A stretch of 64,000 nt of DNA from Ceratodon purpureus (lineage: Eukaryota > Streptophyta > Bryopsida > Pseudoditrichales > Ditrichaceae): positions 12,272,603 to 12,336,602 of the forward strand of contig CM026421.1 of the NCBI GenBank assembly GCA_014871385.1. Reading direction: 5' to 3'. Positions 10,937 to 51,168 of the stretch are shown one piece after another; positions within the stretch are counted from its first letter, which is position 1; every line of letters starts with the position of its first letter. The position numbers were made by a program, and so were the translations under genes. Under the pieces are notes generated by a model. The model saw only the letters and a list, made by a program, of their open reading frames with translations, was not told where the DNA came from and ran no database searches.

Positions 10937-13217
10937 ATGAAGGTATGTTTCGGAGGCTTTTAAGCTAAACCTCGCCTCTCGGACTCTCCTGGTGTAGGAA
11001 AGCTTCGTTGGATGGATTAGTGGCGGCGGTCCTCCTTTAGTTGGGCCTTGCCGCCTTCACCAGTTGGAGCAAATTGGATAATGATTCTCGATCTTCTCAT
11101 TCCCAGTCTTAGCCCGTTTTAGCATTGCGGTAGTAAAAAATCTGTGCTGGAAGCGGGGTACTTTGAGCTATTTTCTTTCACATCGATTCTCGGTAGATCG
11201 TTGTTTTGTAGTGTCACTTCGCAAGTGGCTAATATTGTCCTTCACCTCTTGGTACTGAATGGCGGTGGTGATATGCGGATTGTGTCTTCAATAGGAGTCA
11301 GATGCGGAGGAGGCCAAGACGAACAAGCCAGAGGTTCTCGATGCAACCTTACTTGCCGACTCTGGACGTAACAACCGGCGGCGCAGTCTGGGTAATTCTA
11401 AGGCAGGACGAGGTTTATTTCTGGGGCTCCTGACTGTCGTCTGCATTCTGCTCTTTAGTACCCGGCTGCTATATAGCTTCACGTCGCTGTTCTCTAGTGA
11501 TGCTTCCAAGCTGCTCGACATCCATCTCGTGCGTGGAGACTCACGCAATCGGTTGCAAGAGGAGCACATCCTGAGGGTGGCACAAAATGCAACTAATGAC
11601 GACGATGAGGTGATTGAGCTGCCCCGGAGGGAAGAGGATGGTAATGTAGATAGGTTGCTAGATGATGACGATGATGATGTGGTCGGTGAGGAGAAGTCGA
11701 AAGACGACGAAGAAAAAGGAGAGTCTGGAGAGCAGTCTCGTAGCGACGACGAGATTTCCGAAGGAAGTGATCAAGGAAAGAGACCTGTGTCGGACGCCAT
11801 CGCTTATTTGGAACAGCTTTCTCAGAACCTCACAAAGACAGGTCAGTGAAAAGGCATTGATTATTTAAGGGAATTTGATTCAGAGAATCTGGCAAATTTT
11901 GAAATCATAAGCTCATGCTTTAAATTGACCTCATGTCCAAGAACCCTAATTCGATTTTTGGATTTGCAATGTACCAGGTCAACAAGAAGACAATGGACCC
12001 TACCACAACCGCCGAATCTTCGAGTCAGACTACGCCGAAATGAAGCGCAAAATCAAAGTCTTCGTGTACCCATACGACAACAAAGACCCATTCGTCAACA
12101 TCTACAAACCCATCGACAAGGAGCCCTCAGGCAACTACGCAAGCGAGGAGTTCTTCCAGCAAGCGCTTCAGCAGAGTGGCTTCATCACCAAGGACGCATC
12201 CGAGGCCAGTTTCTTCTTCATGCCAATCTCCATCACTAAGGCCCGCATCGACAAACGTATCGACGTCGTAGGCTTGAAAGACTTCTGCGGCAACTACGTC
12301 GAAAACTTACGGACACAATGGAACCACTGGAACCGCAGCAGCGGTGCGGACCACTTCTACTTGTCATGCCATTCCATCGCCCGCGGCGCAATGGACAACG
12401 TCCCTTACGTCCGAGAAAACGCAATCCAACTTCTCTGCCCTTCCAGCTACTACCTCCCGAACTACATCACTCACAAGGACGCCTCAGTACCGCAAGTCTG
12501 GCCCCGTCCTCCAATTGATCCGAAAGAATCCGGCGAACTGACACCAGAAGCAACAAAACAAAGGTAACCTTAACTCCTAACCCCTAACGGCGACTCACGG
12601 ATGCCATGTCCATAACCGACAACGTCCATACGTTTCACAGATTTCAGAATCTCGATTGTATGCTTATGATAGATAATTTCTCGATCTTACGATTTTGGCT
12701 GACCTTTCCTGCATGGCACTGTTGCAGGAAAGTACTAGCGTTCTTCGCAGGTGCGTCGAACTCACCGGTGCGGCAGGAGCTTATCAAATATTGGGCTAAA
12801 GACAACAAGATCATGGTGCACCAGGGGCGAGTCCCGTATCCCTACTCGCAAGCGCTGATGACCAGCAAGTTCTGCCTGCAAGCGAAGGGGTTCGAAGTGA
12901 ACACGGCAAGGCTCGGAGACTCGCTGTTCTATGGATGCGTTCCGGTGGTGATTGCGGATTACTACGATCTTCCCTACCAAGACATCCTAGACTGGAAGAA
13001 GTTCTCCATTGTGGTTGCTCACGACGACATTCCTCTTCTCAAAAAAATCCTGGAGGCTGTCACTGATGAGCAGTACATTGAATATCACAAGCAGGTTATG
13101 TTGGCGAGGCGGCATTTCCAGTGGCATACTCCACCGCAGGAGTATGATGCTTTTCATACTGTTATGTATGAGCTTTGGAAGAGGAGACACATTGTTAGGA
13201 GGCCGGCGTCTATATAA
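10937..13217 (+). CDS. GT47 exostosin-family glycosyltransferase
   Basis: A Golgi type II membrane glycosyltransferase; plant GT47 members build cell-wall polysaccharides such as xyloglucan, arabinan and xylan. Proposed exons: 10937-10942, 11295-11841, 11978-12563, 12728-13217, giving 542 residues. Exon 1 codes only Met-Lys; it was chosen because ATGAAG|GTATGT is followed in phase by the acceptor AATAG|GAGTCAG, whereas the longer upstream frame cannot be joined in phase. Residues 1-42 are polar and basic (RNNRRRSLGNSKAGRG), a membrane anchor spans about 43-62 (LFLGLLTVVCILLFSTRLLY), and an acidic stem with an Asp run follows. The exostosin domain shows KVFVYPYDNKDPFV, FFFMPISI, DHFYLSCH, KVLAFFAGASNSPVRQ, SKFCLQAKGFEVNTARLGD and GCVPVVIADYYDLPYQD. 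It ends with a Trp-Lys-Arg-Arg-rich tail. The frame is intact. The exact acceptor sugar cannot be told from sequence. Confidence 0.92.
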
Positions 13218-17345: not shown

Positions 17346-19729
17346 TGAAATTGCAGATGCGGTTGGATTTCAGGGGAGGGGTAACAGGGAGAGAACAGTT
17401 GAGAGATTTGAGAGGTGGGAGAACAGAGAGGGGATTATGGAGGGATTTCCACCGGGGAATGCAGGAGGGGCAGAAGAATTTGAAGTGCCTACAGATGGGG
17501 GTTTTGAAGATGGGAATGGAGATTATTTACATGAAAGGGTAGGAAGGGCTAGAGACGTTCGAGGACATTTTTTACGTAGGCGTCAAGTCGAGAGCACTTT
17601 TACTATGCCCATGTTAGAGAGTGACAGTGAAGATTCAGAGAATGAGTAGGAATTGAGTGAAGAAGAACATGAAGGAGGAGAACCGGGAGATCCAAATAGC
17701 ATCAAATATTTATACCGGGATGAAACGTGGAAGAATGATTATTTTACTTATGACCCTAAACCCCACGAGTTCGAAGGTGCTTCAAGGCCAAGTGTTTTTG
17801 AGGGTGCATTTCCCACAATGTTGCAGTTGTTTGAGATTTTCTGGACTCATTATGTATTCTTCGGGATATTGTGAGGGAAAGTAATCGATATGCGACGGAT
17901 GTGGATAGAGAAGGAAATACCATAGGAGGTAGTGGATGGGAGGAATTCACAGTGCCTGAGTTGAAAGCATTCATGGCGATATGGTTGTATATGGGAATGA
18001 AGCGTCAACCAAATATCAAATCGAATTGGCATAGGAGAGGATCCATTTTCCATTGCTCCATTATTTCGTGGATTATGACCCGACGGCAATTTATGACTTT
18101 GACAAGATGCTTGCATATCACTAATCCGGCAAGATATGTACAAGACAAGAACTTACCGGGCTATGATAAATTGGGCCAAGTCCGTTGGTTGCTAGAGGGC
18201 ATTAGAGAAAATTGCATGAAGGCCTGGACGTTAGGGAAATTTTGTTGTATTGACGAAATGATGATAAGATACAAAGGTTCTTATTGTCCTTTGCGTCAAT
18301 ATATGCCACAGAAGCCGCAGAAGTGGGGAATCAAGGTGTGGTGTTTAGTGTGCTCTTCATCAAAATATGTTTGGAATTTTGCGGTTTATTTCGGTAAAAG
18401 CCAAGTAAATCGAGTGGAGGCTCCAATTTTACGAGGTGAGCCAAGATTGGCCCATAATGTGGTAATGGATTTGACAAGTGGTATAGGAGGTCTAGGCCGA
18501 GTCATCGCAATGGATAATTTTTTTTCAAGCGTTGGCCTTTTCAAGGATTTACTTTCTAGAGTTATTTATGCGACAAGAACAATGCGGACTAATCGTATAG
18601 GAGTGCCTTTTGTATTGAGAAATACAAATGCTTATAAGACAAAAGACCAAGGATGGATGGATTGGAGAATGCATGCATCGCGAACAATATCATCGGTGGT
18701 ATGAAAAGATAAAAAACCGGTTATACTTTTATCTACTCATGCACAACCGACTACAACTCCGGGTTTGCATGTACCGACGGTTCCTCGTGGGGATGGAGCG
18801 ATTAGAAATAACATCCCTACATCACCTATGCATCTAGAGTACACAACACATATGAGGGGAGTAGATGTTGCAGATCAACTTAGAGCATCTTACTGTACTC
18901 AGAATCGGTCTCATAAATGGTGGCATCGCATTTTCTTCTTCTTATTGGAGATGACCGTTGTCAACATGTTTTTGATATACATTGAGAAATGCCGAAATGC
19001 CATCCCGGCCCGTAAACCTATTACGCACTTGCAATTTCCGACCGAATTATGTGAAGCGTTGTTGAGGAATTGGAACCGTTTGCAAGAGGAGGAGTGCATT
19101 CAACCTACCGGAAGACGTGGTTTGTGCTTTCCCGTGTATTCGAAAAAGAGAAATTCATGTGTGGTATGCAATAATGATAAAAGTAATAAAGGCATTAGGC
19201 CACATTATTTTTGCCCATCGTGCGATAACAAGTTCATGTGTTTCAAGCCGGGAACTTACTTCCAACAATATCACGAGGCTATCCGGCAACGAGGACTTCA
19301 AAATGTAAGTGGAACTATAAGATATGGTTATTTGTTGTCCATATTTGCATTTTCATATTTTGCACATCATTGGTACAATTTCATTTTATCCAATTACCTT
19401 CATATTTTATTTTTCTTCCACTTTCAATTTTATGTAATTTCAAATTTTCCTAGTATTTTTCTCAATTTTTTTATTTGGGAAAGCACATACGTTACATTAG
19501 AGATGTATAATTGCAAGGAAATGAAATTATTTATAATATGAACATATAGATTTAGTTCTTTAATTTTTGTTAGAGAAGACTGAACATGGGGAAAATGACA
19601 TTTACAAAGTGTGCTTACAGCCATTGTTTGGAATACAGAGACTGTGAGTACAGGAAAGGGAAGCAGGGACAAGTTGCGGTGGGTGAGGCTCAGGCTGGAG
19701 AGTGTGGGGCATGGGTCGGGGTCGACATA

Positions 19730-33835: not shown

Positions 33836-35703
33836 AAGAGCAACATCTGTAGTTTTCTGCCTTCTAGCCCATTAAAGATTCAATTATATTATGTGGAGGT
33901 TACAAACAGCATACCGACTCCCTCGGCCAGTGAATATTTTACACTAAGTCCAGCCCATGACAAAACTTGTGCAACCTAAACAAGACACGTCCAGCCACAA
34001 GCATATACTTGTTGTAGAGATTAGAAGTGTTTTGTAAGTGATGTGAAAATCAGCTATTCACTCTACGAAATGGAAGTATCGCGTTCTACTTTAGAAAAAA
34101 GGATGAGGCAGTAATTTGTGGTGAGGAGAGGAAGTTTCTTGAAGGGAACTTCCGATGGAGTGGAGCTGGTGCATCCTAAATGATTTCTATAACGATGCCG
34201 TCCATCACCTGCTTTGCTCAGGAATCGTGAACAGAAATCAAGCCGAAGCTAGGGACAAAGAATTCAGCACTGTGTGCCATGCTTTGACGAATTAAACATT
34301 CATTACATTTATTGTACGCCATGCATTTTACCTCGACATTAGCAAGACGACACTACACTCGCCACCAAAACCAAAACTACTTCAAAAGTTAAAACATCCA
34401 TAACTCTCTTAATACTTGATCAGATTCAACAATCAAACATTCTATTTTGAAGAAAAAAAACAAGATTAATATGCAGACACAAAAGTTATGGCCTTAATCT
34501 CCACCATTTAAAGGTTGGGCACTGGCATGATATGCGTATGAGAAAGGACTGTCTCAGTCCACTTTTTGAACACCCCCCTCTTTTGCCTTCGCCCCACACT
34601 CTGAGCACATGCCTTTGGCATATATTTAATCCAAATATTGGAGCATAGTCCCTTAAATCTTGCATAGAAGTTTACAAATACTTGTTCCGACCAATATTTT
34701 ATGTCCTTATATGTCCTTTTGTGAAATAACCGGAATCTGTCTCAAACCCCAATTAGTAAGAAAAGGAATCATCCGGACAAGGTCTCAATATTCTTTGGAT
34801 CTAAAATTTTGTAGAGAGTTGGGCAGTTGAGTGCAATGTTAATGGAAGGTATTAGTTTAAGGAAACCTCCCCCCCTAAGATAATAGTTGACAATAAAAAG
34901 TTCAATTTTGCTCAAATTTTTTAACACACCTAAATTAATAGAATTTTTTTTCACTTCTTCGAATGATTGATTCTAATATGATTAAAATGTTTATATAAAG
35001 ATGCCCAATGCATCAAAATTTCAAAAACCTCTTTAAAATAAGATGTGTAGTCTTTGTTAATTTATGGATCCGGAAAGGAGTTTCCAAGGAATGGTAAGGT
35101 CCGGAGGTTGGGTGTTGTGTGAGAATGCTTGCATGTGCCATCATTACTATGATGAGTTGGAAGAAAGAACTAGTAAAAGAAGAGGACATGGGCAAAAGAA
35201 GGACGGCTTGCATGGGAAGGAATGCAATGATGAAGGAAAGATATGGAGGATGAGTGGAGGGGTGGTGGGTGGGAAGGGGTGGAGTGATGGTGGGCGGGAA
35301 AGATTGAAATGATTATGTACAAAGGTAATACATGTGTTGATTTTAAGTACAAGATCTCCCAATACCTCTTCAGAATCTAGGAATTTTGAATAAAGCGAAA
35401 GAAGTATGATGGATGTGTTGTATCTTTGTATTAAGAGGTCGGGGCCGGTTTGAGAAAACAAGCGAAGCAATATCAGGGAATATTTTAATATTCATTCGGA
35501 ATATGCCATTTGCTCCACTGGAATCTTCTGAGAATCTGAAGGTCATAGGGGAATAAAGAAAATATTCCAATATCCGCAGGGATGTAGGTAATGCAAAAGG
35601 GTTTCGGGGAATGTTGTGTGCAGCTGTTTACAGTTTAGAATTTGGAATTCATCACGGTTTCAGGGTAAGGCCATGGCGTGGGATAATTAGAGAATCTCTT
35701 TAC

Positions 35704-35704
<1 letters not shown>

Positions 35705-35734
<30 letters not shown>
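35705..35734. repeat. 30-bp T tract
   Basis: A homopolymer run in AT-rich DNA. Confidence 0.85.
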
Positions 35735-35738
<4 letters not shown>

Positions 35739-36044
35739 ATATCCTTGTCAAGAATTCAATTTATTTCAGGTTAATTTGGAATTTATAATTTGACTAACAT
35801 CATCGACACATGAGGCAATACATTTAATTATCTTCATGCATTGGACAATAATTTGATTCTTGGAAAAGGAGTTAAACAGCCAGGCATCAACTACACAGCC
35901 GGGCATCAACTGTATTGGTTTTGCCTCTCAGGGTACACGGCAGCGTGAACTGAACTTACATAACTGAACTGTCGGGAGGTATCAATGGGTACTCAAAGGT
36001 ACCGGTATCAACTGCGGACTGGATTTGGGTATCAATGGGTAGGG

Positions 36045-36112
36045 TTTCTAGGGAATCTGTAGGGTTTTTAGGGAATCTGTAGGGTTTAGGAGGAATCTGT
36101 AGGGTTCTGCAT
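36045..36112. repeat. Tandem repeat with telo-box-like units
   Basis: Three to four units of agggaatctgtagggttt, each containing TAGGGTTT or a near match. Two copies of tatcaatgggta lie just upstream (about 35976 and 36030). Confidence 0.7.
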
Positions 36113-38219
36113 TGTGAAGGCGGGTTTTCATTTTCTGTAGAATTGAGTACAAGGTGAGATGTTTGCTACACATATTGGTTGCGTTATGTATATCAGTTTC
36201 AAGGAGACATTTAAATCTGTAATTCTAATTTTTTGTTGAATTCTATAACCATGCCACTTCTTTATTCACCTTTTTGTGAATAGTTTTAAAATGATACACA
36301 TGACATTCGATTTTTGATTTTGTTTATGTCTTTTGTTAAAAGAGAAATTTGTAATTTGGCTTGGAATAACGTATTTTTATACATTTTAAGAGCATACCAC
36401 ATATTAAATTCCTTTCTTTGGTAGTTTGTTTTTTTATTTTTTTTCTTTATTTTTTTGTATTTTTTCTGTTTAAGTTTTTTTTGGGGAATCGGATGCATTT
36501 CTAATTTGTTTTGTAATTTTTTTATTATGTTAAATTGTGGAATTTCATAAGCATACCAGTTATGCATTCACCAATTTTTAAAAAGGAGCACTTGTAATTT
36601 GGTTGGTAAAGTGTATCATTGAACATTAATTAATGGCTCTACAAATCAATGCAAAGAATTCCTTTCCTTTGAAGAGTCAAATTTCTTCTGAGACACTTTA
36701 AATGAACATACAATCCGTTGGTTTGCATTTTGTTGAATTATAATTTCAAGCATTTAAGCTTCTTTTTTAAATTTTAATTTTATTTCTTCAAGTCTCCAAT
36801 CATACCATTTATTCATTCACCTTTGCACCGAAGCATTTTTAATATACCCTTGTCATCAACAAAGTTTTGTTTGTTGGCTATGTCTTCTATTTTATTTCGT
36901 CTTAATTTGAAGTTTATAATTTAATTCATTAATCCATGTGTTGTGCTCTTTAGTTTTTTTGGTTTTTTTTATTTTTACGAATTCCTCTTTAAAAAATTTC
37001 TTTGTCATGAATTCAAATTGCTTTTTTAGTTTCATCTTTTATTTTATTTCACTACGCTTGAACTTTGATTTTTGGCTTTGATATGACCTTGTCAATGCTA
37101 TCAACTCCTGTTTACTATTTAAAAAAAAATTGATTTCTATTTAGACTTCAGAATTAATTTTGAATATGTGATCATTTTAACTTCTAAGGCTGCCACCTAA
37201 AGAGTAGCAGTATTTTATGTTTTTTTTTCCGCTTTGCAATTGTTATTTTGACGGTGATACATCATCTTGTTGTTTACATTTTGTCCACAGATCACATTTT
37301 ATTAACTTCAATTAAAATCATCAAGTTTGACAAATAATTGTAATTTGCAGATTCTTAAGGGTACAAATTAAAAAATATGATTAGCAGAGCATATACAGAA
37401 TGGGCATATTATAAATTGAAATTCTGAATGCCATTAACGGCACAAGCATCACGTGGCTGAATGTTAATGGTTACGCCCCGGTACTCTAATGCTGTTATTT
37501 TCTAAATCCGTCATGAGTACAACCCCGGCAATTTTTTTCAGTGGTAGGATGATACTCTAAACCCGTCATTCCCAGGAGAGTGACATCTTGATGATGGAAT
37601 TCCGTAACTGCATCATCATGGAGACGCATGAAGGATCGTGGCCGTTCACGATGCGCGGGCAAAGAAGGAACGGCTGGGACTTCGTCTCTCCCGTTTCGGT
37701 TTCGTCTTCGTCGTTTTGGTTTCCCATTCGTTTCTTCCTCCGTTTTGGTTTCGGTTTTGCAGTAGGGTTCTTGTTCACCCCGAGATCAGTGCTGGGGCTC
37801 TGGATCAACCCGAAACTGAATGAATTGCAGAGTTGGATGAGTGAATGCGTGTTTTCAAGCTTAGTGGCGGCTCATCGGGAGTAGGACTGACTCGGTGAAA
37901 GTTCTTTGCTGGTGAGGAGGGGAGGGGACTGTGCGACTGATCAGTTGGTTTAGGAGGCGTATGTTTGAGGAGGGAGGGAGGGTGGCAGCATGGGTGCCTA
38001 GGTTGAGCTCAAGCAGGGGTAAGTTTCGGTTTCCCCTTCGTTTCTTTTCGAAGTGTGTCATGTTCGGGGATGTTTAGTCGGGGAAGGTGCTGGTTGGGTG
38101 GTCGTTTTGAGTTCTGCTTGTGTTTAGGGCAATGTGGGTGATGTTGCAAGTGAATCAACCTGAATTAAAGAAGTGACCTGTTGATGATGCAGAATTAATC
38201 AGAACTAGGGTTTCAGAGG

Positions 38220-41200
38220 ATGGGGAGTGCAAGAAGTGCCGCGGCCAAGCGTAAGGCCGACATACTCAGGAGGGATGCATTGCGAGTGGAGACAGCGAGG
38301 GCTAAGGCAACAAGGAATAGAGCGAAGAATCGGAAACTAAGGAAGGCAGCAGAAGAATCGCGAATTCATGAACAGGTTGCTTCCGAGGCGTGCGGTACGA
38401 GTGAAGGAACGGCTGATGGGTTGTTTGAGAGAGCGGTGGCCCTCAGTTCCAGCCAATTGGCAATCAAGGTCGACGAATTGACGTCGGGTAGGGGGATAGA
38501 ATTCCAGAGGGCTGTCTTAGAGAGGTTCTTGACTTCGCCGATTCTTAGTAATGTCTTGCCGGAGAGTGTACTGCGAGGGAAAGAGTATGAGCACTGTAGG
38601 ATAGTCTGTAAGGGGATCGCAAGTGCATGGTCGAGTTTGAAGTACGCCAAGGGAAAAGATCACCGGATGGCCCGAAATGTTTTGGAGGCTGCCGTGTTAT
38701 CGTTGGAGGATGCGGATTGTCAGGAGGCTGCTTCGACATGTATTGGTATGAATAAGCGAACTCTGAGGAGAGGCGTACTTCGGAGGAGCTCTCTAAATGC
38801 TGGTGTTCAAGGGGAGGTTTGGGCGATGAACACGCGAAGAAAAAGAAGCGATGCTCTGCATCAAGCTGTTGTCGATGCAGTGGTTACCTTCTGGAGCGAA
38901 GAAACTAGCGTGAGCCCGTCCAAGAAGGATGTTCGTCGCAAGAGAATTGGCGTCAATCGGTTCGTTTCACATGCGGGGCACTGGCTTGAAAGTAGCCAGG
39001 TTCGTGGTGGCTTCGGCTTCTCTTGCATTTCTGTATTGTATTTTATTCATTTAAGCGCTTTTCGGTTCCAGAGGTTCTTGTTCCAGGCGTCTTCTTTTCT
39101 TTGACTCGAGCGCTGTGTCTTGCTACAAGGTTTGCCCATACGCCATGCCCTGCTTCAAGAGATGTGTACGACCAGACTTTCCATGTCAATGTCGTCGGCT
39201 TCTCTTGCATTTTTAATTCATTTTATTTAATTCTTGTTGAGCGCATTTCGGTTCCACTCTTAGAAGTCTGTCCAATTTCTTTGTTTCTCTTTCAACTGCT
39301 CTTCAGTTGCTCCTTTTTCTTCTTCTTTCAGTTTCGGTGTTGTCATTCATGCTTGACTTCCTGGCTTCCCACAGCCCTCTTGTTTTTCTATAAAGGTGTT
39401 CTTGATTTTGTGGTGACTTCACTTTGATTTGTTTACTTGGTGAGGCAAAACTGTTATTCAATTCTAACGGTGCTTTTAATTAAGAAAACAGGATTTAAAT
39501 GTTAATTGAATTTTCCGGCCCCTAGGTCATGGTTCAGGGTCGACTGACTGTTCCGTTTTTAATTGTTGGTGGTTCCTGCTCCTTTTCGGTTTTTAATTGT
39601 TGGTGGTTCCTGCTCCTTTTCGGTGCTGCGAGGTCCTATTCGGTGCTGGGAGGTCCTATTCCGGGATTCTGGCCTTCCTGTTTTAAATGCCTGTCATGGT
39701 CTCCTCTTCGTCACGTTTTCCTTTGGTCTAGCAGTTGATTACGCTGATCCTGTATGCTGATCCTGCATGCTGATCCTGAATTACGGACTTTCTGGATTTT
39801 TCGATTGGAATACTGAATTCCAGCGTAAGTTCCTTTCCGATTTTTAAATGTGAATTCCTTCAAGTCCTTACTCTCTCCGGGCATCTTCCTTTCCTTGATG
39901 TTTATCGACTAATGAGGATTGTCCTTTCCTGAACCGGAAGTCCTTCCTGTCGTTGTCTGTTCCTTCCAGTCCGGATTTAATTGGTGGTTTCCTTCCAGTA
40001 CCGGGACATGTGATCCTGTTCCTTTGTCCGATCATGTACGTCTGTTCATGTTCCTGTCTGTACATCTGTTCCTGTCCTTTTCCTTTGTCCGATGTACATC
40101 TGTTCCTTTGTCCGTAAGAGATCTGTTCCTTTCCTTTTCTTTGAGCCATATTAAATTACCGGGTACTTGAATGTTATCACAGCGTTGCTTTGCTTTGTTA
40201 TAATTTTCACAGCTTCGAATGCTTCCATTCTGTTATCACATCTTGGAATGCTTTGCATAATGAACGTGAATTAGTGGACACTAATTTCTGTGGCTGTTTC
40301 TCTATAAATGCAGCTGGATTTTTACACTAGTTTTAAGGCTATCTACGGGCACTTGAAGGTTTCCTTCGTGTCGTTCAGAAAGCTGCGACCCTTTTACATA
40401 AGGCGACTTCGAGATTTCAATTCTTGTTGCTGCCGGTATCATCAGGAGATGGAGGAGATCACAGCAGGGTTCAACAACATGAGAGCCGCAAAGTTCCATG
40501 TAGGAGTTGGGGTTGACAGTTGTAATTGTTGGTGCCCAGACCTATGTTGCAAGGCCAGAGATGGAGGGGCAATCACTGGGGTGGTCACATGTCAAAGTAA
40601 GTACCACACTTACAAGCGTAGTAGTCATCTGTGGGAGCAGTGCTTGTGCCCACGCGAGCCTGGCTCTGACTGGCACAACCTCAGGTGCGTTACAGGCGAA
40701 TGCGAAGATTGCGGTTTCCAGTTGATCCCGTTGTGTGATAGAGAGGTCGACCCTGCAAACGAAACCTTGTTAGAGTGGCGGAGGTTTGAGATGGTCGAAG
40801 CAGGGAAGACTAAAGCCGGGGATCCGAAGAAGGTGCTGCGGCTGGAGTATAAGAAGACAACTGCAAAGGCGTTCCTGGAACATGCAGAATCAAAAATCCC
40901 GGCATTCCTTCGTCACCAGCACACAGCGCGATGGCAAGACGCTCAGTACCGAGCCTGCATTGAAGGGTTGCAGCCGGGAGAGATCATGAGTCTCATAGAC
41001 TACGCCGAAAATTATTCATTTAAAGGACAGAATGAAGTACAATCGCAGCACTGGTACAATTTCCAGTTGACAATCCTGGTTCACATTACCTACACTGTCA
41101 ACCCAGACTACGACGTGACCGACCCAAAGTCCAAGAAGCGACTCACAGAATATTATTATTATATTAGTGATGACCCGAAGCACGATTCACTCTTTGTGCA

Positions 41201-42622
41201 GCACTGTCTTAATTTACATTGGTCGATGTTGTGTGCAGCTGGCTCAACACCATGCAGACACATAGTGTGGTCTGACGGCTGTGCGTCGCAATTTAAAGGC
41301 GCCACAGCTTTCTTTTATGTGTCAAGGTGCAGTCACAGCTCTCCTTTTCCTTTCCTTTGCGGCTGAATTTCCTGAATTTGCTAATTGGCGTTTGATGCTT
41401 GATCTGTTAATTTTGTTACTTGGCGTTAATTTGTTTTCGATCATCGCTTGTTTCAAATCACACTGTATGTATACTCATTTGTGTGGATTCTAACTTTAAC
41501 AGTTCCCGATAATCATGTGAAAATTGTTGCGCGATGCAACACTGTCTTTGATCCAGGTACCCTTCACTCACACTCTCTGAGGAAAATCCGAATGGTTGTC
41601 AAATGGACTGGCATTACTGGGGGAGTGGTCACGGGAAAGGGCCACACGACGGAGCAGGAGCATGCTTGAAGTCTGGGCTAAGAAAGGAGCAACTCCGAGT
41701 GAACAGTACGCGCCTTCACAATGCAGAAGACGTTGTAAATTTCTTAAGATCATCAATGAACCAGCCGCATGCCGCTTACCCGGGAGCACGAAGAGACGTG
41801 AAGCGTAATTTTGTTCTGATTGGTAAGACTGATGTGTGCCGTAAAGTTTCCATGGGGTGTAGGACTGTGCCTGGCAGCCGCAGCATTCACTCGGTGCGTA
41901 GTGTTGGACCTGCTAATAATGTACTCCTTGAAATGAAGGACTACTCTTGCTTTTGTGTGGGCTGCGTCTCCAGAACAGATAGAGAGAACTCATGCCCCAA
42001 CAGACATTACGCCAAGCCCTGGACACTAAAGACGTTGGAGCCACTCCGACCAGAAGAAGCTGTTCAAGAAGAGGAGGACCCTGATGTCGTGTGGCCTTCG
42101 GAACCAGACAGTAACGATCTTGCTTCCGAGCTCAACGTTGGTGATCACTTTGCTGTACATGCAGATCCATTGGACCCGAATGCTTCTGGGGCTAAATTTT
42201 TTGTGTTGCTATGCACAAAAAGAATGTACGTTGTGGAGGAGAACCGAGCTACTGATTCCTGGGGTGGAGTCTTCGATCGGGACGACGAGGTAGTCGAGGG
42301 CTTATATTATCATCAGCAGGGGATGAATCGCCACTCCTACCTATTTAAGGGAACCGCAGGCAGCGCCCGTATTTATTCCCACTTAGTGCTGGCAACTAAG
42401 TTCACTATGAAGTTACTTCCCCACAAACGAAAGGGTTCTACATCTGTATATCAACTGAGTCCATCCACACTTGCGAAGATTGATGCAGCAATCAAAACGA
42501 GAGAAGAGCGGGACGAAATACACTCTTCACAGTGTGCATCAGATGAATCGGACACTGACTTAGAGGACGAAGACTCTGCTTCGGAAGGAAGCTCCGACGG
42601 TGAAAGTGATTCCGAGAACTGA
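38220..42622 (+). CDS. Transposase-like protein with DYAENY / SDGCASQFK / HGKGPHDG motifs
   Basis: Exons 38220-38999, 40314-41326 and 41557-42622 join in phase (CCAG|GTTCG, TGCAG|CTGG, CAAG|GTGCAG, TCCAG|GTACC) to 952 residues with no internal stop. Residues 1-55 are basic and helical. A Cys-rich segment at about 330-400 (NCWCPDLCCK, RCVTGECEDCG) is probably zinc-binding. Then come IDYAENYSFKGQNEVQSQHW (Asp489), IVWSDGCASQFKG (Asp581) and HYWGSGHGKGPHDGAGACLK (Asp629). The same motif order is known to me from many uncharacterised proteins in cnidarian and arthropod genomes, so I infer an RNase H-fold transposase or a derivative. The last 300 residues hold a GDHFAVHAD...DEVVEGLYY region resembling an SH3/BAH-like fold and an acidic tail. 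Introns are rich in pyrimidine tandem repeats. The nuclease function is unproven. Confidence 0.75.
39540..40135. repeat. Tandem repeats within intron 1 of the transposase-like gene
   Basis: Two copies of a 33-bp unit (attgttggtggttcctgctc...) at about 39557-39625, two copies of a tcggtgctgcgaggtcctat unit, three tgctgatcct units near 39745-39780, and repeated ttcctttgtccgatgtacat-type units at 40020-40130. Confidence 0.75.
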
Positions 42623-42784
42623 TATCTGAAGTCAACAATTCCTACCAAGGTAAGTAGCCTAATTGGACAATCTGAATATAAATGCCTTTTCGGATATGAA
42701 TTACTGTATGTTCTTGTGCATGTAGCTAGGAGCATTCAGTATTCTAAGAATTTTAACTTTCCTATGTGCTTCGCTTTTATTCAG

Positions 42785-42836
42785 ATCCTTGTGTATGAGT
42801 ATATGAAGAATGGTAACTTGGGCGAGCACATTTCAA
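42785..42836 (+). pseudogene. Fragment of a receptor-like kinase exon
   Basis: After an acceptor-like TTTATTCAG the sequence codes ILVYEYMKNGNLGEHIS, the subdomain V hinge signature of plant receptor-like kinases. Nothing of the rest of a kinase domain is seen on either side. A short captured or decayed exon. Confidence 0.7.
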
Positions 42837-42839
42837 GTA

Positions 42840-44200
42840 AGACCTGGGATCTCAGCAATGTATCACAAGTTGGCATCTCAAAGGCGACATTTGATTTTGA
42901 TACTCATTCTCCACCAGGCCAGCTGGCACTGCCGGGTGAGACTTTATATTCTGTGGATCTGAATTTTCTTTGAATACATCGTGAGTTTTATGTGTTTTTA
43001 GAACACAGGTTAGAAAAGTTTGTGTCAATTCACTATCTGGCATCGCGGTGCCTAATTCTTGCATGTAAATGCCTGTATTTTACTTCTACGTGTATTTTAC
43101 TTCTACGTTACGGGTATTTTACTTCTACGTTACGGGTATTCTGTTATTCCTACCTATTTTACATGAATCTTTGTTTTGTTAATTGGCGTCAATGTCTGAT
43201 CAGGTTGAAGTCACAAGCTGCAGTAATGTCTGTTTCGCTCTACCCTTGCAACTCTAGTTTCTAAACTAAATCTCATTCCTGTTACAAAAGAAGGGGACGG
43301 ACGGTTTGATACTAATTCAGTTATGAACCTTATGCTATTCTTTCTAACTTTTCTATTGAATTCAGGTTTATGATTCAGTGATGGAGTATGCGGAAGGAAA
43401 CTGGTTTTTTTTCAGGTTCTGGATGTTTGTAGTCGTATGTTTGAGGTATGTGCGATCATTTTTACTACTTTTTATTTGTTTCTAAGCTTCTTCATATTAA
43501 ATTTCAAGTATGCCTACCCAACTGTTACAAATTCATACATAAGACATATCCACGTAATAACACTTTCACACATGTAGTGCTTCGTCACAGATTTAATTGA
43601 TGCAAAGTAATTATGAAATTCACTTATTGATTGATCTCAAATCTTCAGCTTTTGATTGATCCGATTGCTTATAATCACATTTCAGTACTCAGTTTTAGGT
43701 TTCATGTATAGGCAATGATTGATTTGTGCAACTTGCTTTTTTCTCATATGATGCCACATAAATGTACTTCAAGTACGGATGAAGAAGTAAGTTAGTAAAA
43801 CTTCTGAAATCTTCAGTTTCTGATTGATACACTTGTTTACGATTGAGCTTGATCCTTGCTTAATTTCTGATATGATGCACTTATTTGGTAGATAAATTAC
43901 AGAATCTTCACCTTGTTATGAATTCAGGGTTCAAATCAAGTACCAGGGGAGAAATCAGTGCTCCGCTTCAGTTAATGTAAGGGGATCCTCCACGCATCTT
44001 TGATCTGCTCTGAAATTTCAAGGTCAGGTACGCTTCAATCACTGCATCCACCCCTGACTACTTGTATATAAATCGCACTCTGTTCTCCCAATGCCATGCG
44101 CTCCAACTTCTTCTTTCCATTTCCTTTCTCTGTCTTCCTCTCTCGTTGCTCACAGGTTTCCACAGTTGACAATTTCTTGTGCAGAGTGATCTAGTGAGGT
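42840..44200. other. Intergenic region, no gene seen
   Basis: AT-rich DNA holding three near-copies of tattttacttctacgttacgg at 43076-43140 and the leader of the 170-residue gene at its right end. Confidence 0.4.
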
Positions 44201-44213
44201 TCTCTTTCTCAAC

Positions 44214-44726
44214 ATGGCTGCTACGATTGATCTTGTTGCGCCTAGCGCCATCCTCCACGCGCTGTTGTCACAGTTGGTGGAAGGGAACAATCCGTGGGAT
44301 GCGGCAGACTTTGGGGAAGAGGGGTGGACTCCACCGATTGCCTGCACGATTGAGGACGTTGAAGCTGCTCGAGGCACCTGCAAGGCGTGGAAGCGCTTCA
44401 TCGACAGAAGCCCGGAGTATACCTGTATTCGTTTTGCGCGATGGGAGTATGAGCAACTGGCCGATCACGGATGGAACACGAAGAAGGAGTTTGTGGAGTA
44501 TCAGTTCTCCGTGAACTGGGCGTATTTTGGCAAGTCCTGGACCTTGCAGGCTCCAATGCATAACCGCCGATTCCGAGTGACCCCCCTTGCTGATCTGAGC
44601 TTCGCCGAGTTGATGGAGCTGCGTGGAATGCTTTGGGACTCCGGAAATCACGTCATGTGGCTCGCACCTGGAGAGAAAGTGGCCCCCTTCATTTATGCAT
44701 GGGCTGCCGAAGGTGACCGCACTTAA
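44214..44726 (+). CDS. Unrecognised 170-residue protein
   Basis: A single ATG-to-TAA frame of 170 residues with plant-like codon use. It begins MAATIDLVAPSAILHALLSQ and contains a helical segment IEDVEAARGTCKAWKRFIDR that looks somewhat like an F-box-type or substrate-adaptor helix, followed by an aromatic-rich region (WNTKKEFVEYQFSVNWAYFG) and ADLSFAELMELRGMLWDSGN. No signal peptide or membrane segment. A pyrimidine-rich leader (44095-44160) lies in front. It sits between the transposase-like gene and the double-RING gene and may be cargo of the same element. No family can be named. Confidence 0.55.
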   Translation: MAATIDLVAPSAILHALLSQLVEGNNPWDAADFGEEGWTPPIACTIEDVEAARGTCKAWKRFIDRSPEYTCIRFARWEYEQLADHGWNTKKEFVEYQFSVNWAYFGKSWTLQAPMHNRRFRVTPLADLSFAELMELRGMLWDSGNHVMWLAPGEKVAPFIYAWAAEGDRT

Positions 44727-45236
44727 GTTTCCTCTTTCTGTATGTAGCACTGTAACCGTGTTAGAATGGTCCGGTTGAGTGCGAGTTCTCAGTATCATGT
44801 TGGTTGTGGCTTTGATTTCAGCTCCTTCACAGTGAACTCAGGTTACGTTTCCCTTTGTTCTTTTAGTTTTCGGAAATAGTGCTTGTTGAGGCAGCTACTG
44901 TTATTTTACTCGTTATTAGATCCGGATAGGTTATTGTAGACTACTGCATGTGCATCCTCTCCGACCCTAACTTTCTGATCACTGTTGCATATGGCATTCA
45001 TGCTCCGATTTTCCATGTACTTTTTGTGAAACAGTGAAATCAAATTGTGTTTAACCTTAAATCGTGCTTCTTATGGCTCTCTGGCATACATCACCCAGGC
45101 TCTACTTTGGCCGCTTTTATTGTGTAACTTCATTTGCCGCCATGATGTTTTAAAGCAACTCATTTGTTTCTGTGCACCTTGCTTTTCCTAATTTCTTTTC
45201 TTGTGCAACTTCTAGCTTGTCACAGCACTTGGAGTT

Positions 45237-45395
45237 GTATGTTATCACAGCATATGTATGTTATAAACACAACTTGTATGTTTCGGTAGTTCTTGTACAG
45301 AGTATGTTATCGCAGCACTTAGATGTTATCAGAGCACTTAACTGTTATCAGAGCACTTTCCTTTTTATCACCGCACTTGTATGTTATCACAGCAC
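45237..45395. repeat. TGTTATCACAGCACTT degenerate tandem array
   Basis: Six or so units like tgttatcacagcacttgta, separated by 5-20 bases. Related units (tgttatcacagc, gttatcacatcttgg) occur in intron 1 of the transposase-like gene at about 40172-40245. Confidence 0.75.
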
Positions 45396-45409
45396 TTCTT
45401 TGTTTCCTC

Positions 45410-46170
45410 TGTGCAGTCCGGCACTCTGTGCAAATGGTCTCGGAACCATTCTTCTCTGCAACTCAACCATTGTTTCAACTTTGCCAATAAAATATAAATA
45501 TTAAAAACAAATGGTCTCTGGTGTGCTTCATTGCCGACTGACGGTAACTTAACCTCCAGCTAGTAGGCATGCAGGCAAGATTGTGAATTGGATATAATAT
45601 AATTCAATCTCATTATGAAAATCAATGAAGGAGATTGACCCAACATTACTATCTTCCATCTTAGCAACCCAGAGGATTGATGCTGGCTCGATATTATACT
45701 GTGAGATGCCAATGCTAGTTGGGAAGTGGAAGAATTCCAGACTCCATGGTCGAAAGAAATGTCAAAAGACTCGTGAACTGAAACTCAAAGACTCCTACTC
45801 AAAGACTCCTACTCTACATTTTCGTTTGAGTCATTCAATAAAAGAAACAAGGTGCGGAGAGACTATGCACACAATCTTAGAATCAATTAGAGAGTAGACG
45901 GGTTGAAAATATAAAATGAAAATCCTGAAGTCATAAAATCAGGGTAACGTTCCTCAGGTTTCCAAATCACATTAAACCGAAACTGTTAAGTCGCAACAAG
46001 AATACGACACCATGGCTGACACCGAATTGCATGCCCCTAAATTCAACCCGCCTTAAACCCTAAACCACTCCCACCCGGATGCCTCCTCCGATAAAAACCA
46101 AAACTATACGAGGGTTTACTTCTACATAACAGATCACATTGCTAATCCTACTACGATATACCTCTGTTCA
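45410..46170. other. Region between convergent genes
   Basis: Only a chance-looking 90-residue frame (45625-45897) is present; no product recognised. Holds the 3' flank of the double-RING gene. Confidence 0.35.
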
Positions 46171-46179
46171 TACACCAAT

Positions 46180-49100
46180 CTACATGTCCCTAAACTTCGC
46201 TGGAACAGTCTGCCGACCCGTTCCATTCCGTGGCACCCGAATTCCTTGCCCCGAACTTTCTGGCCCTGATCTCTTCACCACGCTGCGTGGACGCCTCGGC
46301 TTCTTCTTTGGTGGCTCATCTTCCTTCACCAAACCTAGAATTTCATCCATTGTCCGCTTCACAATCCGAGTGTGGTTCATGCTGTCATCTATTTGTTCTT
46401 TTTCGCTCCGCTTCTTCTTAACTACTGTGCTGCGTTCCTTCTCTCTGGCAGGGTTGGGCGAGGTTGAAGGGGGTGCTTCCAATTGGTGGCTTGTGGTGGC
46501 TACTGTTTCTGTCTGTTCTGCTTCATCAGTGGTCAACAACACCTCTTCTTCGACTCCTTTCAGTAGATGCTCAACTGATACAGAACGAACACCACCTTTC
46601 CTAAATGTTTCATCATCGCAGTAGTGAACTAACCCGTCATTTCTGTGGTCGTCTTCGTCGGATTCTTCATCGCTCTCTACAATGTCAGCACACTCCTCAC
46701 CCGAAAACGCTACGACAGGTGCACCTTTGCTCCCGAGATCTTCATTGTTTCCTGTACTAGCCGAGGCCATCATACCTGTCGCTCCTCCCTTCACCGCCAC
46801 GTTGCGGATTGTGTGTACCTTTGCGGTAGCTTCCCATCCCCCAATTTTTTCCTTGCAGGTTGGGCAGACAGTCATTCCATTAACACATCCGAAACAGAAT
46901 GTGTCGTGACCACATGCCTGTGTCACGGGAAGATCAACGTCAGTTCCTGACATGGGCGGTAGTCATCGAAGTCAACAACATTTTATTTAATTTGGTATCC
47001 TTATGGAAGGGAATTTAAAGAACCCCCTTTCTCTCAGCATTCAATCCCAGCACATCATTAACCTCCTAAACCCTATGCTTTCACTTCAACCAATTCAACA
47101 CCTAACAACATCAACGCTCACATCTGGAATTGCTCGCTCTCACAACGAACATGAAAGGTTCTACACAAAAAGCAACCTAAGAAAACACAATAACATGTAC
47201 AGCCACTCCCAACTCACATCCCCAAACCTAACAAAGAAACGACCAGAAGCTGATCATCACCACGCCACTTCCTCCCCCACTTCCATCAGTTACAAACCTA
47301 ACAATGCTCACAATGCTTGCACTCATCACAACCGACATGAAAGAGCTGCAACATGAAACGTAACCTTGAAAAAAAATGCAAAATGCATGCAGACTCACTT
47401 GTCATTCAGAAAAAACTCTCCAAACACATATCCTGATGAGCAACAGTCGTAATAATCTCTCAATGGCCATGAATTCACTCTCCTCATTCTATACACCTAC
47501 ATGACAGTATACCATTAACCTCCTAAACCTTACACTTCAACTTCCACAAATTATCCAACATGCTTCTACATGAAATGTAACCTAAAAAGAACAAAGAAAA
47601 ATGTGTTATTTTCAAAGAACCCAACAGTGTATCCTCAAACCTAAACCCACCATCAGTGCGCTTCTTCTTCAATAAACTGCTTGTAACTATCAGCATTCAG
47701 CAACAACTGCACCTCGGATGGGTCCTTGAGACACTAACCTTCAGTCTCACAGCAGAAGCCTTTGACTTGCACACATGGCAAGTACCCGGCACATTCCCCT
47801 CTCCCGACGCACATCCACGGCTGGCCTCCCACACATTGTTCTCGCTTGCCTGTGAGCCCAGCGTATTCCTCTCGCCTTCTTCACAGCTCGAGACCACGCC
47901 TGACTCTGCAACAAAAACAAGAAAAATAAATTAAAGCATACTTCCATTTCCAAGTGCAAAAATGAGTTCCACCATCTCAAGTTTACAGGACCCCTTTCTG
48001 ATTTATCTGAGACTGCGCTTGGGAGCATCCTGAATTATCTGAATACAAAGGACTACAGTTGACATGGACATCACAACGGAAATCTACAAGGAGCTTTCCG
48101 GGATTAAGGAAACTCCCGGAGCATCACATCCTCCGGAGCTGCTGACCCAGACCTCATTACAATTCCGGAGCCCTTTCTCTTCCTGTTCCTTACTGCTAAC
48201 CCGGACAACCTCCGGAGCTATTGACCTACTTTCCTCACATCCTCCGGAGCCCTTTTGATTCCTGACTACAGCTCTTGACATCAGGACCTACGGATGGCTT
48301 CCGGACATTCCGGACCGTAAAATATTGGACTTCATGAATTCTAACCTCCGGACATCAGAATCACTAAGCTCCGGACATCAGGAACCCTAAACCTCTACAC
48401 AAGCGGAATTTGTAACGTCAGGACATCCAAAGGACCTAAGGAAAGATCTAGTCCTACATATATTCTGAACATCCGGATTAGAAGTCCTGATATTTGCGAC
48501 ATCTATAGCAACCTCTACACATCCGGTAGGAGGTCTGGCAATCCTTTCTAAGTGCATCACATTAACCTCCGGAAGACTTCAGGAATGCTACAGCACCATG
48601 CATACAAACTCGACAAGATTTCAGGAATGCTACAGTACCATGCAACACACTTGGAAGTACTTGTTACTTAGAAAGGAACAGAGAAATCGAAATAAAGAAA
48701 TCCGGGAGCAAAATTAAAGGATCCTCTCTAAGACAACACATGAAAGGATGTTACACAAGAAACAAGATGTCAAGTAAACACACCTTTCGCTTTCTCTTCA
48801 GCGGCCGGTAAGGAGCGAGAAGCCTGCACCTGCTCTTTCTTTACGACCATCACAGGGGACTGCGCCGAAGTTCTTATCCCCAATGCTATCTGATGGCGAC
48901 GTACAAAAGCCTTCCCACAGTCGGGTAGAAGACAACGCGATGACACCTTGGCGTGCTCAGCAAGACACCAAGGGTGATAGCAATGACCGCATCCAATTGG
49001 CACGTAATCAAAACAAGAATACCACAGGCGACAAACAGGACAAGGATTCAAGGTGTGTACTGTTTGAACCGGCTGTTCGGGACATGCTGCGATGGGCAAG

Positions 49101-50212
49101 GGCCAGAAAGTGTTTCCAACCCCTTCCCGCATCATTCGCAGCTGCTCTTCCATAACCGCAGCCTGCCTTACGAAGGCCTCCACCTTCTGCTGCAGGTTGG
49201 TGTGATCTTCGTATGTCATCTCGAGCTCCCTCTCCAAGCGGCCGATTGTTTCTTCACACTCTGTGACTATCTGCCGTGATCGTTTCCCACTCCTCTGTTC
49301 ATCAATCCTGGATGCGCAGAGGGCCTCACACTTCCTCTCGTCACTCGACAGTTGTGCTACCAAGGTCTCTTTCTCAACTAAAGAACCATCTCCTGACCCT
49401 AAAGACTCTAAGAGTATGGACTTCTCTTCCATCTGAGCTCTTATGGAAAGCTCCTCGCCGTCAATCCTTGAAATCTCGGACTCACATTCGGCTAACATTA
49501 CGGTACGATCCTCCTGCATCAATCTCGCTCGTCTGAGTGAGTCCTCTTTCTCCCCCCTAACCTTCGTGACCTGCTCTAAAGAAACCCTAAATCCCTCAAG
49601 TAAAGCTGATCGGTCCCCAATGACCTCGACCATGCCGTTAATGTCGTCCTGCAACCAACACGGTGAGACAATTGGGTTCCGACTTTTGCCACCGCCCCTT
49701 CTCCCCATCGAAGCACTGAAACCCTCACCTAACACCTCAGATTTGACAGTGAGCTTTAATTCTCTGGGAAACTCATCGCTTAGAATACCCTGCGAAGCCA
49801 AGCAGCGGCGTTTTCCGATTATGGAAGGGACCACTCCTTCACCGTCCCTCTCACTCCTCACAAGTTTTGTCTGTTCTTTCTTCTTGCGAATACCCTCACG
49901 GTATTTTCTACGGCTGACTCTAAACTCCTCCCAGTCCACCTTCGTACCCTCAGACCATAAAATAAGACCTCTCGCAAATTGTACACTAATCTCTTTGTTG
50001 GGTATGTCTTGGGACTCGTAAACTCTGCGATACAAACTTAGAATAGCATCCTGCTCTTCGGGAGAGGTTCGTTGCTGATACTTCCAGCCAGATTTGCTCG
50101 ACTTCGGGCCAAAGAAACTGCAAATCATACTCTCGGGGACTCGTTCTTGGCCAATGTCACCGACCTTAATCCCTCCTTCAGGCACCCCGTCGACATAAAA
50201 CCGAGCGGACAT
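46180..50212 (-). CDS. Coiled-coil protein with two RING-type fingers
   Basis: Exons 50212-48784, 47905-47739 and 46917-46180 join in phase to 777 residues. Residues 1-180 are unrecognised, with a Lys/Arg-rich stretch (RRKYREGIRKKKEQTK). About 200-385 is Glu/Arg/Leu-rich and likely coiled coil. The first finger, 391-432, runs CPVC, GCGHCYHPWC, CLLPDC. The second, 519-553, is assembled across the exon 2/3 junction: CHVC, then ACGHDTFCFGC, then CPTC, giving C-x2-C-x11-C-x-H-x3-C-x2-C-x6-C-x2-C, a good C3HC4 RING. That fit supports the junction. An acidic region and basic patches (KEDEPPKKKPRRPRSVVK) end the protein, suggesting a nuclear role. RING proteins are usually E3 ubiquitin ligases; that activity is inferred. 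An alternative acceptor at about 46953 would be out of phase. Confidence 0.75.
48060..48560. repeat. TCCGGA-rich interspersed repeats in intron 1 of the double-RING gene
   Basis: About a dozen short units such as cacatcctccggagc, cttccggacat and ctccggacatca are scattered through this intron. No coding potential. Confidence 0.65.
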
Positions 50213-50422
50213 CTACATGGAGCAGCTGGAGAGGATGAGTCACTTGCCTACAAAGAACTCAAACCGAACTACACCAAACCTAAAGCATTTGCAGTCTACA
50301 TTAATGTCAAATAGTACAAGAAAAAAAAAGTCGGTTAAGTTAAGCATGGTGCACTGTGGAACGAGAAACATTACCCTGAAAAGCTTCCAAGACTGCGGCT
50401 GACAGGAACGAGGATGACAAGC

Positions 50423-50440
50423 GAGGCGTGCGGTACGAGT
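50423..50440. repeat. Right copy of a long-range 19-bp direct repeat
   Basis: With one more base on the left (50422), cgaggcgtgcggtacgagt is identical to 38384-38402 inside exon 1 of the transposase-like gene, 12.0 kb away and in the same orientation. Confidence 0.7.
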
Positions 50441-51168
50441 AAATGCAGAGTAAATGCAGAGAAGACGAAGATGACAAGCAACGGCATGAAGATGAAGGAT
50501 AAAGAAGAAACCAAATTCGGAAAGAGCCCGCCAAATTTGCGCGCCAAAGATCGCGCGCCAAAGATGGAGAGTGGGCCAGCTCAGAAATTGTTCCCGCCTG
50601 GCAGGGTATTCCGGAGCAGGAATATCACGACGTGGCAGTGAAATCGCCACTCGCGAGGCTCCCCCTTCGTAATCCGTTATCGACATTCATGACGTCCGTT
50701 CCTTGACACCCCAAGCGTGCCAGCGCCCGGTTATGAGCACTTTTAGCATCAGTCTATTGATTTTTGATTTTCTTTATGCTCAATATTTCATCTTATTCAA
50801 CAATATACATGTAAAGAGTATGTATCCATTGAACTGCCAAGATGAACTCTAAACTCCCAAAAGTATGAACACTGTAAGCATTTAAAGTTTCCTTTGGATT
50901 ATGGTAGTTGAGATCATGCTATAGTTGATGAAGCCGCCACTGCCAATGCTCCACCCACGAAATGGGGATTTCATAGTTGCATTATATATCCCGACCCCGG
51001 GTTAAAGGTTGCACATCATAGTGCACTTAATTACAATATCAGTTTACCTAGTATGGATTGTTTTCTGTTTCTGAAGAAATATGGCATCAAAACTCAAGAA
51101 ACACATTCTTCAAATGTATGCATTTCTGAACAAGGAACCAGAGTCCAGAGAACCAAACAGCTTCCAGT

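Follow-up and report, generated by a model that had tools for sequence, protein, structure and literature searches.

What kind of gene is the unbroken three-exon frame at positions 38220-42622 of a 64,000-nucleotide stretch of the moss Ceratodon purpureus (assembly GCA_014871385.1, contig CM026421.1, positions 12,272,603 to 12,336,602; hereafter the window), and is it part of something larger? A sequence-only reading had taken it for an intact member of an unnamed transposase-like family. We find that it is almost certainly the transposase gene of a complete cut-and-paste DNA transposon, located at 34517-50728 and having the anatomy described below, and the best overall explanation, in which we have good confidence, is a complete transposon of this kind, most likely of Sola type, accompanied by a proposed RING-type partner.

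Ends, transposase and copies of the element

The evidence for the ends of the element is positional. Similarity to the copies on C9, C13 and C5 begins abruptly at window position 34517, the flanks being different, and for C9 and C13 it stops at 50728-50729. At these borders lie 13-bp terminal inverted repeats, GGGCACTGGCATG on the plus strand at 34517-34529 and GGGCGCTGGCACG on the minus strand at 50716-50728, which give the element GGG..CCC termini, and directly outside them stands GGTT as the left (34513-34516) and right (50729-50732) copy of a target-site duplication. The window element is thus 16.2 kb long, and the elements on C9 and C13 measure about 14.2 kb. Perfect 4-bp duplications were present at all six elements for which both ends were located, with a different sequence at each site: GGTT in the window, GAGA on C9, TAGT on C13, CAGT at a 33-kb composite on C13, and ATTC and TCCG in two members of a sub-lineage that is about 65% identical in exon 2 of the transposase gene. 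The ends of this sub-lineage are related but different (GGGTGATGG...), and its left and right ends match each other imperfectly. The count of six leaves aside copies A and B on C5, for which only the left end was located, and L012, L014 and L016, with one end each. L049, from a distant sub-lineage, was rejected as an element with both ends, since its break at L049:1237 is ambiguous in that another repeat may simply end there; L049:1-1236 is a high-copy repeat, about 97% identical at many places, whose junction with a distant transposase copy is sharp. Searched as a genome-wide pattern, the 13-bp end showed no enrichment (38 matches versus 156 for the reversed control).

Although they occupy different sites, the elements on C9 and C13 share 98.4% identity across the final 6.3 kb, so the family moved recently. 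Synonymous divergence between the window element and the C9 copy is uneven, at about 0.4-0.6 in the RING-type gene, 0.7-1.0 in the transposase and 1.3 in a small third frame, and the first 0.8 kb of the window element is 92% identical to a copy; this looks as if lineages had swapped parts.

The transposase gene comprises 952 codons and a stop, with exons at 38220-38999 (260 codons), 40314-41326 and 41557-42622, all on the plus strand and joined in frame. Both introns have GT...AG borders at identical positions in all 18 copies examined, out of 21 copy loci (the other three were omitted because exon 3 is broken or missing or, for L015, as a near-duplicate of L013), and chance can be ruled out for the gene model because these borders are kept throughout. 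The exon 2/3 junction finds further support in L041, a more distant homologue, since there the parts corresponding to exons 2 and 3 are encoded in a single uninterrupted frame of 653 amino acids. The three-exon structure proposed earlier therefore holds, and the motifs named with it stand where they had been placed: DYAENY starts at residue 489, NEVQSQHW at 500, SDGCASQFK at 580 and HGKGPHDG at 623, with Asp489 and Asp581 in exon 2 and Asp629 in exon 3. Such motifs occur widely in animal proteins, and the sequence-only reading had likened their order to uncharacterised cnidarian and arthropod proteins; for the kinship of the family this is a lead rather than a test. The supposed zinc-like Cys cluster, also in exon 2, proved real, 12 Cys and one His between window residues 298 and 401 being the same in all 17 exon-2 sequences aligned, and exon 3 does contain, besides a C-terminal beta-rich region, the acidic tail that had been noticed, followed by the stop. 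The window transposase is intact and under purifying selection: compared with L009, from the nearest sub-lineage, the ratio of nonsynonymous to synonymous substitution rates (dN/dS) is 0.09, 0.06 and 0.09 for exons 1, 2 and 3, synonymous sites being saturated in most of the other computed pairs. Two repeats were seen near the gene. Upstream of the transposase, positions 36105-36125 repeat 21 nt of exon 3 (41708-41728) in inverted orientation at 95%, possibly by chance or as a fragment of another copy. In one sub-lineage, the transposase is preceded by tandem-like repeats with units of roughly 130 bp (L021:1-1115, L022:7304-8746 and L023:13-691).

The predicted structure of the transposase has an RNase H topology in which Asp489 lies in beta-1, Asp581 directly after beta-4 and Asp629 just before the helix that follows beta-5. 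The three residues are invariant and occupy the places expected for a DDD centre, although in the predicted structure the third catalytic residue could instead be an invariant Glu of the next helix. For the C-terminal part, putatively BAH/SH3-like in the sequence-only reading, the model shows with confidence a region rich in beta structure. Comparison with structure databases gave only moderate matches, with 4-16% identity in structural alignments with retroviral integrases, IstA and Mos1 from the PDB, and for neither model did plain Foldseek return a hit at E <= 0.001, a result that does not exclude families absent from the structural lists. Taken together, the inverted ends, the 4-bp target duplications, the high copy number and the predicted topology holding the three Asp support the suggestion of a transposase with an RNase H fold.

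The assembly comprises 362.5 Mb in 151 contigs, including one chromosome of 110.5 Mb (C6, 30% of the total), and PMC8000587 gives C. purpureus 360 Mb and sex chromosomes each above 100 Mb. A search of this genome with exon 2, in which 115 of 1,076 first-look candidates were scored, gave at least 126 matches, and merging of two-piece matches left at least 115 transposase places, of which 72 reach 50% identity and 43 fall below it. The copy count called for by the sequence-only reading thus exceeds 100 dispersed copies, a number of which show stop codons within the matched stretch. Among the matches listed, C6 carries 29 of the 72 nearer copies and three of the 43 more distant ones.

The convergent RING-type gene and a third frame

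Downstream of the transposase and convergent with it, a RING-type gene was modelled on the minus strand. Its exon 1 (48784-50212) encodes a region resembling a coiled coil as well as a second Cys/His cluster that is weakly RING-like, exon 2 (47735-47905) gives the first CxxC of the RING, and exon 3 spans 46180-46946; the first junction of this model has two near-equal alternatives. With exons 2 and 3 joined, the Pfam C3HC4 RING finger barely reaches its cut-off (27.3 versus 27 bits), and the second cluster in exon 1 gives a weak RING match (E 0.33). A genome search with exon 1 yielded 95 matches, or 81 places after merging of pieces. Of the 72 nearer transposase places, 57 have a convergent RING place no more than 40 kb downstream, at 5-15 kb in 48 cases and at 18-37 kb in nine, whereas one has another arrangement and 14 have no RING place; within the same distance, none was detected at any of the 43 more distant copies. 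Placement and orientation are kept across sub-lineages whose RING proteins are only about 40% identical. When the RING-type gene of the window is compared with those on C9 and C13, dN/dS reaches 0.25-0.26 for exons 1 and 2 and 0.36-0.38 for exon 3. C9 against C13, which are nearly identical, gives 0.54 for exon 1, a value resting on very few changes. In copy A, exon 3 contains a stop codon.

We propose that the RING-type protein is a conserved second protein of the element, which might aid mobility or counter silencing, perhaps as an E3 ligase. A stronger version of this idea, which we advance tentatively, is that the elements form a deep lineage of two-component moss transposons, each with a DDD/E transposase and its own convergent RING protein, the latter being a dedicated E3 ligase partner whose task is to assemble or regulate the complex that carries out transposition, or to clear away host silencing factors. 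The transposase and the RING-type gene would then have travelled together while synonymous sites in the transposase became saturated, and, just as tentatively, the RING protein would represent a new kind of partner for the superfamily. Another possibility is that the RING-type gene is a passenger, a captured host gene without a role in transposition. This is a less likely but still serious explanation, as no listed transposase lies within 40 kb of 23 of the 81 RING places, the gene is missing at 14 nearer copies and undetected near the 43 more distant ones, and an unrelated extra gene, Fanzor1, is described in some Sola2 elements (PMC3627910). Against a passenger speak the shared place and orientation at 57 of the 72 copies, in sub-lineages with such divergent RING proteins, and the purifying selection on the gene. 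Certain Gag and Pao proteins of retrotransposons are described as having RING domains too (PMC3630058); in the literature searched, the conserved RING partner of this element is apparently new, and the two-gene design may be new as well.

Between the two genes lies a third open frame of 178 codons (44190-44726, plus strand, first ATG at 44214), which could encode an accessory protein. It is free of stops across the matched stretch in all six copies compared, with a dN/dS of 0.18-0.41 in all pairs except the near-identical L009/L010 (0.59). Relatives of this frame elsewhere in the genome gave 869 candidates, of which 150 were scored; the candidate places number in the hundreds. C6 holds many of them, and some lie close to the ends of chromosomes. 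The relative at L054:2161-2682 on C13 adjoins a frame with a SET domain (E 2.4e-10).

Superfamily assignment

The transposon superfamily is probably one already known, and on balance we favour Sola. PMC10741241 describes Sola elements as encoding a DDD transposase, making 4-bp duplications and measuring 2-9 kb, sometimes above 15 kb, between inverted ends of 11-1124 bp, and records them in a moss; PMC3985635 places Sola within the RNase H-like superfamily. The 4-bp duplications at six of six elements with both ends, the 13-bp ends and the sizes of 16.2 and about 14.2 kb all agree with this description. It is for this reason that the label of an unnamed family appears doubtful. Searches of Pfam, NCBIfam and PDB sequences returned no credible family for the transposase. 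Weak scattered profile matches, the best of them to DUF4326 (E 0.00046 in two of 31 members) and to peptidylprolyl isomerase B (E 0.0023 in three of 31), were taken as chance.

A distinct, unnamed DDD/E superfamily, neither Sola nor Lanisha, is unlikely. The empty library searches and the merely moderate structural matches would fit it, as would the lack of confirmed relatives in viral contigs and prokaryote genomes, where two short peptide patterns were used per scan and distant relatives can escape. Absence from libraries is nevertheless weak proof, because no curated Sola model was met there either, and the anatomy of the element fits the published Sola description.

More improbable still is that the element represents Lanisha, a cut-and-paste superfamily reportedly found in C. 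purpureus, although the present family is a large one in this very moss. Maumus, McDaniel and Carey put Lanisha forward as a superfamily (Repbase Reports 2020), and at least Carey and Maumus are also authors of the C. purpureus genome report. As described in PMC12730594, Lanisha/CMCT transposases are EnSpm/RAG1-like with C(2)C and then H(3-4)H between the second Asp and the last Glu, and the elements have 5'-CA..TG-3' ends in most cases and duplications of 2-5 bp. Our 4-bp duplication falls within this range, but in alignments read by eye there is no CxxC between Asp581 and Asp629, the CxxC coming later, and HGKGPH does not keep its H(4)H in L041, which reads HGKGQW. Furthermore, no EnSpm family was matched and the ends are GGG..CCC, differing from a CA..TG rule that holds for most members only; Lanisha is thus set apart by description, not by consensus sequence.

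Other superfamilies as characterised in PMC10741241 could be dismissed directly. The GGG ends and 4-bp duplications rule out CACTA/EnSpm (ends CACTA or CACTG, 3-bp duplication), the 13-bp ends starting with GGG rule out Ginger (inverted ends of 40-270 bp, TG..CA termini), and 4-bp duplications without a fixed sequence rule out MULE (7-12 bp), hAT (8 bp), PIF/Harbinger (3 bp, TAA/TTA) and Tc1/mariner (2 bp, TA). Finally, a domesticated, transposase-like host gene family that is no mobile element, as an intact frame under strong purifying selection might suggest, is hardly credible and is rejected because the ends are precise and target duplications are present, with a different 4-bp sequence at each of six sites, in a family of more than 100 dispersed copies, some interrupted by stop codons.

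Possible mechanism and comparison with known systems

For a Sola-type transposon with a RING partner, one can envisage that the N-terminal region and the Cys/His cluster of the transposase bind the element ends, and that the triad of Asp489, Asp581 and Asp629 coordinates two metal ions, cleaves these ends and inserts them into target DNA. The target would be cut with a 4-nt stagger, gap repair then leaving the 4-bp duplication, and the RING protein might help mobility or oppose silencing, perhaps through E3 ligase activity. The analysis provides the full anatomy (ends, target duplication, gene set and sub-lineages) of a large, recently mobile transposon family, whose genes are easily annotated as host genes because the protein-family libraries searched do not recognise it. 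If the RING partner is functional, use of the ubiquitin pathway by a plant transposon becomes testable.

Elsewhere in the window, a second, unrelated transposase is present at 17835-19538 (plus strand), where two adjoining frames match the piggyBac-type Pfam family DDE_Tnp_1_7 (E 1.5e-53 and 1.6e-07), and positions 12588-13214 (plus strand) cover a portion of a host gene from the exostosin GT47 family (E 5.7e-32).

Among known systems, retroviral integrases, IstA and Mos1 differ from the moss transposase in having no sequence similarity to it. Lanisha/CMCT elements resemble the moss element in cut-and-paste movement with short duplications and probably in the host moss itself (PMC12730594). 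Some MULEs (PMC6446971) likewise combine a transposase with a second gene on the opposite strand; they have 7-12 bp duplications instead of 4 bp and another transposase, and the likeness is therefore one of design and not of membership. The closest resemblance, compared by description only, is to Sola1, Sola2 and Sola3 (PMC10741241, PMC3627910), with which the moss element shares 4-bp duplications, short inverted ends, a size above 15 kb, occurrence in a moss, extra genes such as some Sola elements carry and, probably, a DDD-type transposase. It differs from them in its convergent RING-type gene and third conserved frame, and from Sola2, whose 4-bp duplications are described as AT-rich (PMC3627910), in duplications that are not AT-rich throughout.
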